A DNA stretch of 64,000 nt. It comes from a virus. The notes under the pieces were generated by a model, which made no database searches, was not told the origin of the DNA, and saw nothing but the letters and a program-made list of their open reading frames with translations. The DNA is taken from positions 1 to 64,000 of the IMG/VR virus record IMGVR_UViG_3300003937_000144. The stretch is one strand, 5' to 3'. A program made the position numbers and the translations under genes. Of the stretch, positions 13,367 through 20,535 are shown piece by piece (positions within the stretch are counted from its first letter, which is position 1; each line of letters opens with the position of its first letter).

Positions 13367-15661
13367 ATGACGTCTATCTTTGTAACGAAGCGTAGCGGCG
13401 AGACTGAGCCGTTCAATATTAATAAAATCCACCGAGTTCTTGAATGGGCGTGTCAAGACTTAGTTGGGGTATCGGTCTCTGAAATAGAGATGAGAGCCAA
13501 TGTTCAAGTATATGAGGCAATGGAATCTGTTAAGATCCATGATCTCTTAATCAAATCAACATCCGAACTAATAAGTGAAGCAACACCTAACTATCAGACT
13601 GTTGCAGCAAGGCTAATCAATTATAAATTAAAGAAACTTGTATATGGTGACAAGGACCCATGGCGATTAAAAGATATTATTGACCATAATATTGATGCTG
13701 GAGTCTATGATGCAGATATATTAAACATGTATTCTGATGCTGAATTAGATTATATTGATTCGCAAATAGTAGATCATTCACGTGATGATGACTTCACATA
13801 TGCTGGTATGGAACAAATGAGATCCAAGTATTTGGTACAGAATAGATCAGATGGTACCATATACGAAACGCCTCAGGTATTATATATTATGATTGCCATG
13901 ACATTATTCGGTAGATATAATGGTAGGCGTATAAAGTTTATAAGAGAATTCTATAATGCTATATCACAATTCTATATCTCATTGCCAACACCTATCATGG
14001 CTGGTTGCCGAACGCCTACAAGACAATTCTCGTCATGTGTAGTCTTAGAATCTAATGACTCATTAGACTCAATCAATGCAACATCAACTTCAATCGTTAA
14101 ATACATTTCAAAGAAAGCCGGCTTAGGAATTAATGCTGGAAAGATTAGAGCGGTTGGTAGTAATATTGGTGATGGTTCTATTGCACATACTGGTCTAATA
14201 CCATTCCTCAAATTGTTTCAAGCATCGGTCAAATCTTGTTCTCAAGGTGGAGTGCGAGGTGGTGCCGCAACTGTATATATGCCTGTTTGGCATTATGAAT
14301 TTGAGGATCTTGTTGTATTAAAAAACAATAGAGGTACTGAAGAGAATCGTGTACGTAATATGGATTATGCATTTCAGTTTAACCAGTTAATGTATGAACG
14401 ACTATTAGAAGGTGGCAAAATAACATTCTTCTCACCTAATGATGTCCCTGGATTGTATGATGCATTCTTTGAGGATCAAGATCTATTCAAAGAGTTATAT
14501 GAAAAGTATGAGAGGTCATGGAAGATCCGTAAGAAATCTCTACCAGCCCTCGAGGTATTCTCTCAATTCCTAACAGAACGTAAAGAGACTGGACGAATAT
14601 ATCTACAAAATGTAGACCATGCAAATACACATGGGGCATTTATAGAGAAACAAGCTCCGATACACCAGTCGAATTTATGTTGCGAAATCGATCTGCCAAG
14701 TCACGGATTAGAATCATATGACGATACAAGTAAAGGTGAGATCAGTTTATGTACTCTTTCAGCAATTAATTGGGGTCTAATAAATGACCCACGTGATTTT
14801 GAAAAGTATTGTGAGTTAGCAGTACGTTCTCTTGATGCTCTCCTTGACTATCAAAACTATCCTGTTGTTGCGGCAGAAAGATCCACAATGAACCGCAGAC
14901 CACTAGGTGTAGGCATCATAAACTTTGCCTACTTCTTGGCGAAGCGTGGGCTGAAGTACAATGAGGAAGCCCTTGCCACCGTTGATATCTACGCAGAAGC
15001 ATGGTCATATTATCTCATAAAAGCTAGTGCAGATCTAGCAAAAGAGAAGGATTGTTGTTATAAAAATCTCGAGACTAAGTACGGGCATGGTATCTTGCCG
15101 ATAGATAGCTATAAACCCGAGGTCAATGAATTAGTCAAACATAAGGAAAGAATGCCTTGGAAGGCGTTACGGGCGCAGCTTTTGAAATCCGGCATAAGAA
15201 ATTCGACATTAATGGCTATTATGCCCGCTGAAACCTCGGCCCAGATAGGTAATGCTACAAATGGTATTGAACCACCTCGTGCATTAGTATCATATAAGCA
15301 ATCGAAGGACGGAGTTATGGCACAAGTTGTACCACAAATCCATAATCTTAAAAACAAATATGATCTATTATGGGACCAACCTGGACCAGAAGGTTACTTA
15401 AAGATCATGGCAGTACTTCAGAAGTATGTTGACCAAGGTATATCAGTAAACACCAGTTATAATCCAGCACAATATGAAGACAATAAAATACCAATGTCTG
15501 AGATGATGAAGGACTTAATTACCTTCTATAAATATGGTGGTAAACAATTATATTATTTTAATACTAATGACCTGACTAATGAAGATGAGTCACAATTAGG
15601 AAGAGAGGATTTTAGCAGTGATAAAGAATATGATGACTATTGTGAAAGCTGTGTTTTATAA
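13367..15661 (+). CDS. nrdA: Ribonucleotide reductase class Ia, large subunit NrdA
   Basis: The 764-residue protein has an N-terminal ATP-cone (MTSIFVTKRSGETEPFNINKIHRV). The catalytic barrel includes FSSCVVLE and SNLCCEIDLPS, which hold active-site cysteines, and PAETSAQIGNATNGIEP. The redox-shuttle tail CESCVL lies at the extreme C-terminus. It reduces ribonucleoside diphosphates to dNDPs with NrdB (19453), and glutaredoxin (20532) can re-reduce the tail. Here nrdA is separated from nrdB by about 3.8 kb holding a carbamoyltransferase, tmRNA and other genes. Its stop overlaps the carbamoyltransferase ATG. Confidence 0.95.
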   Translation: MTSIFVTKRSGETEPFNINKIHRVLEWACQDLVGVSVSEIEMRANVQVYEAMESVKIHDLLIKSTSELISEATPNYQTVAARLINYKLKKLVYGDKDPWRLKDIIDHNIDAGVYDADILNMYSDAELDYIDSQIVDHSRDDDFTYAGMEQMRSKYLVQNRSDGTIYETPQVLYIMIAMTLFGRYNGRRIKFIREFYNAISQFYISLPTPIMAGCRTPTRQFSSCVVLESNDSLDSINATSTSIVKYISKKAGLGINAGKIRAVGSNIGDGSIAHTGLIPFLKLFQASVKSCSQGGVRGGAATVYMPVWHYEFEDLVVLKNNRGTEENRVRNMDYAFQFNQLMYERLLEGGKITFFSPNDVPGLYDAFFEDQDLFKELYEKYERSWKIRKKSLPALEVFSQFLTERKETGRIYLQNVDHANTHGAFIEKQAPIHQSNLCCEIDLPSHGLESYDDTSKGEISLCTLSAINWGLINDPRDFEKYCELAVRSLDALLDYQNYPVVAAERSTMNRRPLGVGIINFAYFLAKRGLKYNEEALATVDIYAEAWSYYLIKASADLAKEKDCCYKNLETKYGHGILPIDSYKPEVNELVKHKERMPWKALRAQLLKSGIRNSTLMAIMPAETSAQIGNATNGIEPPRALVSYKQSKDGVMAQVVPQIHNLKNKYDLLWDQPGPEGYLKIMAVLQKYVDQGISVNTSYNPAQYEDNKIPMSEMMKDLITFYKYGGKQLYYFNTNDLTNEDESQLGREDFSSDKEYDDYCESCVL

Positions 15662-18603: not shown

Positions 18604-18831
18604 ATGTTAGATAAAATCACAAACGGCGTAGCCGCCGCAACGGCTATAGCAATGTCACTTATTGGTTTGGCAATTATGTTGCAAATCGTATTTGGCGGCA
18701 GCGTGCCTTTTCTTGGCGGAGACGTCATTGGTACGATTATTGCAATAGTCCATCAGCTAGGTGACGCTGGATTGGTTGGATTAATTTCCGCAGCAATACT
18801 TTGGAAATTACTAACTTCAGATGATGCATAA
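18604..18831 (+). CDS. Small two-helix membrane protein, holin candidate
   Basis: The 75-residue protein starts with AGGAGAATAT upstream. Two hydrophobic segments (about residues 10-31 and 41-68) are separated by a short Gly-rich turn (GGSVPFLGGD), and it ends in a short acidic tail (TSDDA). Size and topology are those of a small two-span holin, but many phage membrane proteins look alike and no endolysin lies nearby. It directly precedes the tmRNA. Confidence 0.55.
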   Translation: MLDKITNGVAAATAIAMSLIGLAIMLQIVFGGSVPFLGGDVIGTIIAIVHQLGDAGLVGLISAAILWKLLTSDDA

Positions 18832-18859: not shown

Positions 18860-19088
18860 TATAAAACGACGTAAAGGTGAAGGTAGGAGCACTTAACACG
18901 TGGGTTCAATTCCCACCTCCTCCACCAAATATATTTTAAACGAGATGTATTTGATGGGGGAGACACGGCTTCGATTAGGTAGCAGATCCGCTTGAGACTC
19001 GTCAGCCAACAAAGGCTATAAAATGAAAAATTAATCGGCAATCAGTCAGATTATTTACTAGCGGCGTAGAGTCAGCTAGTTGAGGTTT
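18860..19088 (+). ncRNA. ssrA: Permuted two-piece tmRNA (ssrA)
   Basis: The acceptor piece comes first. Its T-arm is GTGGG / TTCAATT / CCCAC (18900-18916), followed by 3' acceptor strand CTCCTCC (18917-18923), A, and encoded CCA (18925-18927). After a 28-base spacer the coding piece begins with GGGGGAG (18956-18962), which pairs with CTCCTCC (one G-U). The hallmark GGCTTCGATTAGG follows. The tag frame is GGC AAT CAG TCA GAT TAT TTA CTA GCG GCG TAG (19037-19069). It encodes GNQSDYLLAA with a hydrophobic LLAA end and TAATC just upstream of the resume codon (compare TAGTC in E. coli). ACTAGC/GCTAGT (19057-19062, 19075-19080) closes a stem over the stop codon. The outer 5' end of the acceptor piece is approximate. 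Confidence 0.85.
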
Positions 19089-19091
19089 TCT

Positions 19092-19130
19092 CCGGAGTTC
19101 CTTATCACCCAATACTCCGGTCTTTTTTTT
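19092..19130 (+). terminator. Rho-independent terminator of the tmRNA
   Basis: CCGGAGT (19092-19098) and ACTCCGG (19114-19120) form a perfect 7-bp stem with a 15-base loop, followed by TCTTTTTTTT (19121-19130). Confidence 0.9.
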
Positions 19131-19144
19131 ATATACATAATACT

Positions 19145-19456
19145 ATGATATCTCTAACTTCCCACGCAACTGAAAAATTACATGGCCTTCTAACTGGTCA
19201 AATGGGATTACGTGTATTAGTAAAAACTACAGGCTGTTCAGGTCTGGCCTATCACTTAGAATATTCTATAGATAAAAATATAGACGATATAGAAGAAACT
19301 ATTAATGGTGTTCGTGTAGTCATTGATCCTAAATCACTTGCATACGTCGATGGATGTGAGATAGACTATAAATATGAAGGTCTTAATGAAGGCTTTGAAT
19401 TTTATAACCCCAAAGAAAAAGCCAGGTGTGGTTGTGGAGAATCATTTACAGTATGA
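19145..19456 (+). CDS. iscA: IscA/HesB-type iron-sulfur carrier
   Basis: The 103-residue protein has the three conserved cysteines of A-type Fe-S carriers: C31 in KTTGCSGLAY, and C95/C97 in the terminal RCGCGESF. The overall length is that of the family. A-type carriers deliver Fe-S clusters or iron. Its overlap with nrdB, whose product needs a diiron centre, suggests iron supply for reductase assembly, or support of Fe-S proteins such as the radical SAM protein at 63317. Both links are inferred. It starts after the tmRNA terminator. Confidence 0.88.
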   Translation: MISLTSHATEKLHGLLTGQMGLRVLVKTTGCSGLAYHLEYSIDKNIDDIEETINGVRVVIDPKSLAYVDGCEIDYKYEGLNEGFEFYNPKEKARCGCGESFTV

Positions 19457-20535
19457 AAATGAAAAAATCTGTATTTAAAATAAATACAAAAAGCCACTTA
19501 GAAAAAGATTTATTCTTTGACGAAGGTGTTGACGTTGCAAGATATGATGTAGTTAAATACCCAGCCTTACAAAAACTATATGAGAAGATGTTATCATTCT
19601 ATTGGACTCCTGATGAGATCGATGTCACAAAAGACAAGATTGATTTTAGTAAGCTAACAAAAAACGAACAACACATATTTACATCCAACCTAAAAAGACA
19701 AATCATATTAGACTCGGTACAGGGCAGATCACCTGACTTGGCTTTATTGCCACTTGCAAGTAATCCTGAACTTGAGTTACTTATTGAAACATGGGCATTC
19801 TTTGAGACTATTCACTCAAGATCGTATACACACGTTATCAGAAATGTATATCCTAATCCATCAAAGGTATTCGATGAGATAACTTCGATACCGGCAATAT
19901 CCGAATGTGGTAATGCAATCTCAGAACATTATGACAACCTCATCAATTATAAGGGCCCTCACGGTAGCTATACACATAAAAAACTGTTATATCTCTGTTT
20001 GATCAGTATATATATTCTGGAAGGTATAAGATTCTATGTGAGCTTTGCATGTTCATGGGCATTCGCAGAGCTTAAACAAATGGAAGGCAATGCAAAAATT
20101 ATTAAGTTAATTGCAAGAGATGAGAATCTACACCTTGCAGCATCGTTAAATATTATTCGTACGCTGATTAAAGAAGATAAAGACTTTGAAGACATTAAGC
20201 TTTCAACTAACGATCAAGTAATGAATCTATTTGAAGATGCATTGGTACAAGAAGAGGAATGGTGTGATTACCTATTTGGTAATGGTTCAATGATTGGATT
20301 AAACACAGACCTCTTAAAAGAATATGTACGTTGGATTGGAGCAAAGAGAATTAGAACACTAAATTATCCTGTACCATTTTCAACACATCAGCATAACCCA
20401 CTTCCATGGACAGAGAAATGGATTAGTGGCGGAGCAGTACAAGTTGCTCCACAAGAAACAGAGATAACATCTTACACATTAGGTGGTGTCAAACAAGATG
20501 TTAATAAGAAATCATTCGAGGGATTAAGTTTATGA
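19453..20535 (+). CDS. nrdB: Ribonucleotide reductase class Ia, small subunit NrdB
   Basis: I chose the ATG at 19453, overlapping the IscA stop by 4 bases, giving 360 residues; the frame is open a little further upstream. Diiron ligands are visible as LDSVQGRS (Asp), FFETIHSRSYTHV (Glu, His and the radical Tyr region), LEGIRF (Glu) and RDENLHLAA (Glu, His). The C-terminal tail contacts NrdA. It makes the tyrosyl radical for ribonucleotide reduction with NrdA (13367). The order iscA-nrdB-glutaredoxin forms one overlapping operon. Confidence 0.95.
   Translation: MKMKKSVFKINTKSHLEKDLFFDEGVDVARYDVVKYPALQKLYEKMLSFYWTPDEIDVTKDKIDFSKLTKNEQHIFTSNLKRQIILDSVQGRSPDLALLPLASNPELELLIETWAFFETIHSRSYTHVIRNVYPNPSKVFDEITSIPAISECGNAISEHYDNLINYKGPHGSYTHKKLLYLCLISIYILEGIRFYVSFACSWAFAELKQMEGNAKIIKLIARDENLHLAASLNIIRTLIKEDKDFEDIKLSTNDQVMNLFEDALVQEEEWCDYLFGNGSMIGLNTDLLKEYVRWIGAKRIRTLNYPVPFSTHQHNPLPWTEKWISGGAVQVAPQETEITSYTLGGVKQDVNKKSFEGLSL

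Follow-up and report, generated by a model that had tools for sequence, protein, structure and literature searches.

Phage-encoded tmRNAs are already known, including the phage-borne ssrA genes of Bacillus phage G, mycobacteriophages Bxz1, Wildcat and others (PMC4131195). The paper on the 2025 tmRNA database gives 79 phage tmRNAs (PMC11915505). A two-piece phage tmRNA was reported in Melnitz, in a paper that counts 53 two-piece cases, 50 of them marine or aquatic (PMC9004378). Melnitz, a marine Kyanoviridae myophage, encodes a permuted two-piece tmRNA in its ssrA gene (MZ577097; PMC9004378), which resembles the gene described here in these respects, and the T4-like baseplate proteins of the two phages are related (40% identity). 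Permuted tmRNAs are also present in two related marine myophages, Pelagibacter phage HTVC008M and Mosig. The tmRNAs of Bacillus phage G, Bxz1 and Wildcat, by comparison, are one-piece molecules. Thus, the permuted phage tmRNA is known as a kind, and the gene analyzed here is a further member and represents a new clade, although the two-piece phage tmRNAs of the Melnitz paper may include part of this clade. The Melnitz tmRNA differs in being of the alpha type, with the tag ANDNYVPVDYALAA and the acceptor strands CGCCTCC/GGGGGCG; it lies upstream of a late-transcription coactivator, whereas ours lies in an nrd/iscA cluster, and its intervening segment is 143 nt long and contains a nested ORF, compared to 28 nt here. 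The tmRNAs of HTVC008M and Mosig are likewise alpha-type, precede a late-promoter factor gene and carry other tags.

The window, i.e., the whole stretch of 64,000 nucleotides that we analyzed, belongs to an IMG/VR virus record of 94,019 bases. This record encodes UvsX, a DnaB-like helicase, baseplate wedge and tail tube proteins, and ribonucleotide reductase, all T4-like, and the carrier of the tmRNA is a marine T4-like phage. The tmRNA is located in the ribonucleotide-reductase cluster, between a hydrophobic ORF and the iscA-nrdB-glutaredoxin genes, with the following neighbors:

13367-15661: nrdA (PHROG 84)
18604..18831, plus strand: small hydrophobic ORF of 75 aa, upstream of the tmRNA and likewise upstream in relative L320
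19145..19456, plus strand: IscA-like Fe-S carrier gene, iscA (PF01521, 51.5 bits), the constant neighbor downstream of the tmRNA
19426..20535, plus strand: nrdB, ribonucleotide reductase small subunit (PHROG 86)

Also in the nrd region, the protein encoded at 20913-21392 matches PHROG 447 (annotated as NAD synthetase) and several homing-endonuclease families. A near-identity DNA search of named phages with 16 kb around the tmRNA locus gave zero matches, and the tmRNA by itself, in a distant search, mainly matched stretches of about 40 bases, which in several cases belong to tRNA genes. A sigma-70 promoter scan upstream of the tmRNA detected nothing above chance, and the sequence TATAAA at 18861-18866, considered as a promoter element, is not kept in relatives.

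The Rfam model of permuted tmRNA (RF04321, tmRNA_permuted) matches positions 18867-19069 with 65.6 bits (cmscan, E = 2.1e-10 over 64 kb), above the curated cut-off of 47 bits; the preliminary description of the locus had named the absence of a covariance-model hit as refuting its reading. The folding energy z-score is -3.5, and none of 200 shuffled sequences folded as well. ARAGORN called no tmRNA in the window. The sequence is diverged enough for this program to miss it, which calls for caution in annotation. The parts of the gene are as follows:

18866..18927, plus strand: acceptor (3'-terminal) piece, comprising a P2 strand, T arm, acceptor strand, A73 and CCA (RF04321 match)
18900-18916, plus strand: T arm GTGGG/CCCAC, in which one stem pair covaries (UA/GC/AU)
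18917-18923, plus strand: acceptor 3' strand CTCCTCC, its pairs invariant in 26 sequences
18924 and 18925-18927, plus strand: A73 and encoded CCA, read as ACCA directly after CTCCTCC
18928..18955, plus strand: intervening segment of 28 nt, predicted to be removed in the mature RNA, with flanks forming a stem that lengthens the acceptor helix
18956..19069, plus strand: coding piece, comprising the 5' acceptor strand, D-arm signature, P2, a small hairpin, resume codon and tag (RF04321 match)
18956-18962, plus strand: 5' acceptor strand GGGGGAG, forming 7 bp with CTCCTCC, including G3-U70
18967-18979, plus strand: D-arm signature GGCTTCGATTAGG, read from the sequence
19032..19053 (arms 19032-19036 / 19049-19053), plus strand: resume-codon hairpin TAATC/GATTA with the resume codon in its loop, supported by covariation
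19037..19069, plus strand: tag frame GGC AAT CAG TCA GAT TAT TTA CTA GCG GCG TAG, translated as GNQSDYLLAA
19057..19080, plus strand: tag-end hairpin ACTAGC/GCTAGT, which holds the end of the tag and shows AU-GC and CG-UA compensatory changes
19081..19120, plus strand: post-tag H-type pseudoknot, both stems 100% paired and with compensatory changes
19081-19085 / 19100-19104, plus strand: pseudoknot stem S1, TGAGG/CCTTA (UA-CG compensatory changes)
19092-19098 / 19114-19120, plus strand: pseudoknot stem S2, CCGGAGT/ACTCCGG (AU-GC compensatory changes)
19121..19129, plus strand: U-run after the second pseudoknot stem, a probable intrinsic terminator, the U-rich tail being kept in relatives

The preliminary description had claimed a phage-borne, permuted, two-piece tmRNA with its own tag, and all the elements it named are in the sequence, in agreement with the RF04321 match: acceptor strands that pair, the GGCTTCGATTAGG signature after the 5' acceptor strand, and a stem-enclosed reading frame ending in YLLAA and a stop. 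The gene is slightly larger than described there, with helices from 18868 and the pseudoknot and U-run reaching approximately 19128.

Relatives were gathered through the neighboring IscA-like gene, yielding 56 viral loci, in 43 of which a tmRNA lies directly upstream of this gene. A pattern built on the post-tag pseudoknot matched 68 viral contigs. After pooling with the IscA-like-gene loci there are at least 48 distinct forms of this tmRNA type in IMG/VR contigs, adjoining the IscA-like gene. RNAalifold recovered the tmRNA fold from 26 distinct sequences, and the pseudoknot pairs were added to this alignment by hand for counting covariation. In these 26 sequences, the 66 base pairs, including those of the post-tag pseudoknot, are paired in 99.5% of the cells; in 16 of these pairs, both partners have changed. 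Double changes occupy 80 cells, compared to a mean of 15 after shuffling and 1-13 in slid controls. The compensatory changes are located in P2, the T stem, the intervening stem (five pairs at columns 64-69/191-196, in a segment that varies in length among relatives), the hairpin after P2, the resume-codon hairpin, the tag-end hairpin and both pseudoknot stems. Given the RF04321 score above the cut-off, the folding z-score and the excess of covariation over the controls, the match is not a chance one. The G3-U70 pair, the 7-bp acceptor stem and the CC of the CCA end are invariant among relatives. In L022, L025 and L029, CCT replaces CCA; the terminal A is not encoded there, so that host CCA repair would be needed. 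The acceptor strands and the tag frame are both kept in related phages, i.e., the conservation on which the preliminary description had staked its reading is observed. As judged from these alignments, the complete tmRNA gene is under selection.

There are ten variants of the tag in the 26 sequences and twelve in the 48 forms, and synonymous changes are present. Tags of the clade have 9-10 codons, all ending in ALAA or LLAA followed by a stop; the codons before the stop vary (GCG GCG, GCC GCA, GCT GCT, GCA GCC), as does the stop (TAG, TGA or TAA). The A at position -4 of the resume codon is retained in relatives (UAAUC or UAAAC), the E. coli equivalent being UAGUC. In L036 and L040, a U-A pair of the resume-codon hairpin is swapped to A-U; the tag residue D becomes V in step with the upstream U to A change, indicating a joint constraint on RNA helix and peptide. 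All tags in the clade start with G/D-N or G-K and none with AND, whereas all 28 bacterial permuted tags sampled start with AND. In E. coli, docking of the SspB adaptor uses the AND start of the tag, and by analogy its loss could weaken SspB docking. With the AND start lost and the LAA for ClpX kept, the idea that the phage tag evades the adaptor is open to direct test.

Among the three older permuted Rfam models, the best for the window is beta_tmRNA (RF01850), with 60.0 bits (E = 1.6e-17); this is short of the curated cut-off of 84 bits, and the gene is therefore beta-like and not filed as RF01850. The same model is the best of the three for L189 (69.9 bits). An alphaproteobacterial affinity, the first group named in the preliminary description, is not supported: beta_tmRNA outscores alpha_tmRNA (RF01849), whereas alpha_tmRNA is preferred by Melnitz (106.7 bits), HTVC008M (83.8 bits) and Mosig (67.6 bits). 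In a maximum likelihood tree without the single cyanobacterial row, the sampled sequences of the window clade group with the beta copies (split support 100/99), although the phage-clade branch has 2.5 changes per site and long-branch error is possible, so that this placement is provisional. The pseudoknot stretch CCTT[AG]TCACCCAA is common to the window clade and bacterial copies from the order of G004, and the bacterial betaproteobacterial-type copies L193-L202 share this motif and a 10-codon tag. They differ in having AND-initial tags instead of G/D-N or G-K, and CACCTCC/CATCTCC instead of CTCCTCC in the acceptor. Provisionally, the window clade appears to be a separate betaproteobacterial-type branch, common to dozens of ocean phages. 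A search of genome contigs with the pattern CTCCTCCACCN{15,45}GGGGGAG listed matches that were apparently due to chance in GC-rich sequences (Streptomyces and others); the pattern is too loose, and the bacterial source of the acceptor stem was not found by it. The type of the tmRNA is a poor guide to the host, for which it had been proposed at this locus, because the Melnitz host is the betaproteobacterium OM43, yet the phage's tmRNA is alpha-type; hosts should not be named from it. From the difference in type (beta versus alpha) and in locus, it seems that permuted tmRNAs entered marine T4-like phages on two or more occasions, out of different bacterial lineages and into different genome places, two separate captures being the simplest reading.

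Taken on its sequence, the gene most probably encodes a functional permuted, two-piece tmRNA that would work with the SmpB of the host, a reading to which we assign a probability of about 0.88. The steps proposed below, as well as the benefit, are extrapolated from tmRNA biology. A precursor would be transcribed within or beside the ribonucleotide-reductase cluster, host tRNA-processing enzymes would excise the 28-nt intervening stem-loop, and RNase P would cut at GGGGGAG, with the 3' end trimmed and CCA repaired wherever this is required. The two RNA pieces would be held together by the acceptor and P2 helices. G3-U70 is the identity element of AlaRS, and the host AlaRS would charge the tmRNA through this pair. 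With host SmpB and EF-Tu, the tmRNA would enter ribosomes stalled on broken mRNA, and the ribosome would switch to the GGC resume codon and add (A)GNQSDYLLAA, an LAA degron of the ClpX type. As its benefit, the tmRNA would most likely keep ribosomes free during the turnover of host and phage mRNA in infection. It might also redirect rescue and tagging in infected cells, as the preliminary description supposed. The strong structural selection on a phage tmRNA speaks for a role of ribosome rescue in infection.

The same degron could serve another end. The Melnitz authors offer the alternative that host proteins are the main target of the phage tag, to be degraded for amino-acid recycling (PMC9004378). 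The retained LAA C-terminus is consistent with such a role, as is a tag N-terminus unlike those of all bacterial permuted tags sampled, which could change the use of adaptors; however, trans-translation tags anything that is stalled rather than host proteins as such, and we consider this role unlikely. Still less probable is a decoy, in which the main action of the tRNA-like part would be to titrate the SmpB of the host and so block host trans-translation, even though the tRNA-like domain of tmRNA alone inhibits host tmRNA (PMC4131195). Ten phage records, partly fragments and including the window's 94-kb record, a relative of 140.5 kb, Melnitz, Mosig and HTVC008M, yielded no SmpB gene, which would suit such a decoy as well as a working tmRNA that uses host SmpB. 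A decoy role has been proposed for the RNA of phage DS6A, which to our knowledge has no tag frame. However, a decoy needs no tag frame, resume hairpin, stop or pseudoknot, all of which are kept here with synonymous or compensatory changes. The same compensatory changes (80 cells, with 99.5% pairing), together with the position kept in 43 of 56 relatives and the completeness of the gene in a T4-like phage, make it highly improbable that we are looking at a passive remnant of a host ssrA gene acquired by a temperate ancestor, although ssrA is a common integration site (PMC9004378).

Compared to the tmRNA of the window, six relatives (L011, L012, L013, L014, L042 and L310) carry an addition: a conserved 50-aa zinc-ribbon ORF (CxxC...CPHCGKP; L013:5687-5839, with matching places in the other five) inside an intervening segment of 137 nt. 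The ORF runs into the 5' acceptor strand and ends within the 5' acceptor/D-arm region. In the more diverged pairs, pS is 0.27-0.40 versus pN of 0.04-0.09. Zero matches were obtained for this ORF in Pfam, PHROGs and named phages, and no copy was found in the window's record. Of the standalone homologues, one directly follows iscA in L320, where the tmRNA spacer is short, and one directly precedes it in L322; the gene seems, therefore, to have moved from the neighborhood into the tmRNA. Melnitz (alpha-type tmRNA, L184 / MZ577097.1 46013-46345) and 18 contigs (L327-L344) contain another, unrelated nested ORF with a length of 36-62 aa (mostly 52-62) and a Shine-Dalgarno sequence GGAG; the more diverged pairs have pS of 0.24-0.35 versus pN of 0.08-0.11. 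The predicted product in Melnitz has 54 aa and begins MFKWLSKT. In the public Melnitz record, the tmRNA alone is annotated and the nested ORF is not. The searchable part of the 2025 database paper mentions intervening sequences that hold a tRNA and a repeat, with no mention of a protein gene in such a sequence (PMC11915505). Nested ORFs of this kind have their flanking stem in common with the processing helix and mostly overlap the 5' acceptor strand, so that the transcript could serve either role. Tentatively, the excised segment might have come to house small translated genes in two phage tmRNA lineages that are unrelated, the transcript being either the mRNA of the nested protein or, folded and cut, a tmRNA; such a translation-coupled switch, of which the window would be the empty form, is possible but rather doubtful.

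Two observations concern other loci. In L187, a 205-kb phage-like contig with many tRNAs, there is a permuted tmRNA at 1501-1801 on the minus strand (150.3 bits) with the tag ANDESYRIAA; a candidate tRNA in its intervening segment has a tRNA-like T arm but is not intact according to ARAGORN or Rfam. In Melnitz, a glutamine riboswitch (L184:1886-1934) lies beyond the tmRNA match on the 3' side, ahead of the next genes, so that it need not control the tmRNA, contrary to the abstract of the Melnitz paper (PMC9004378).
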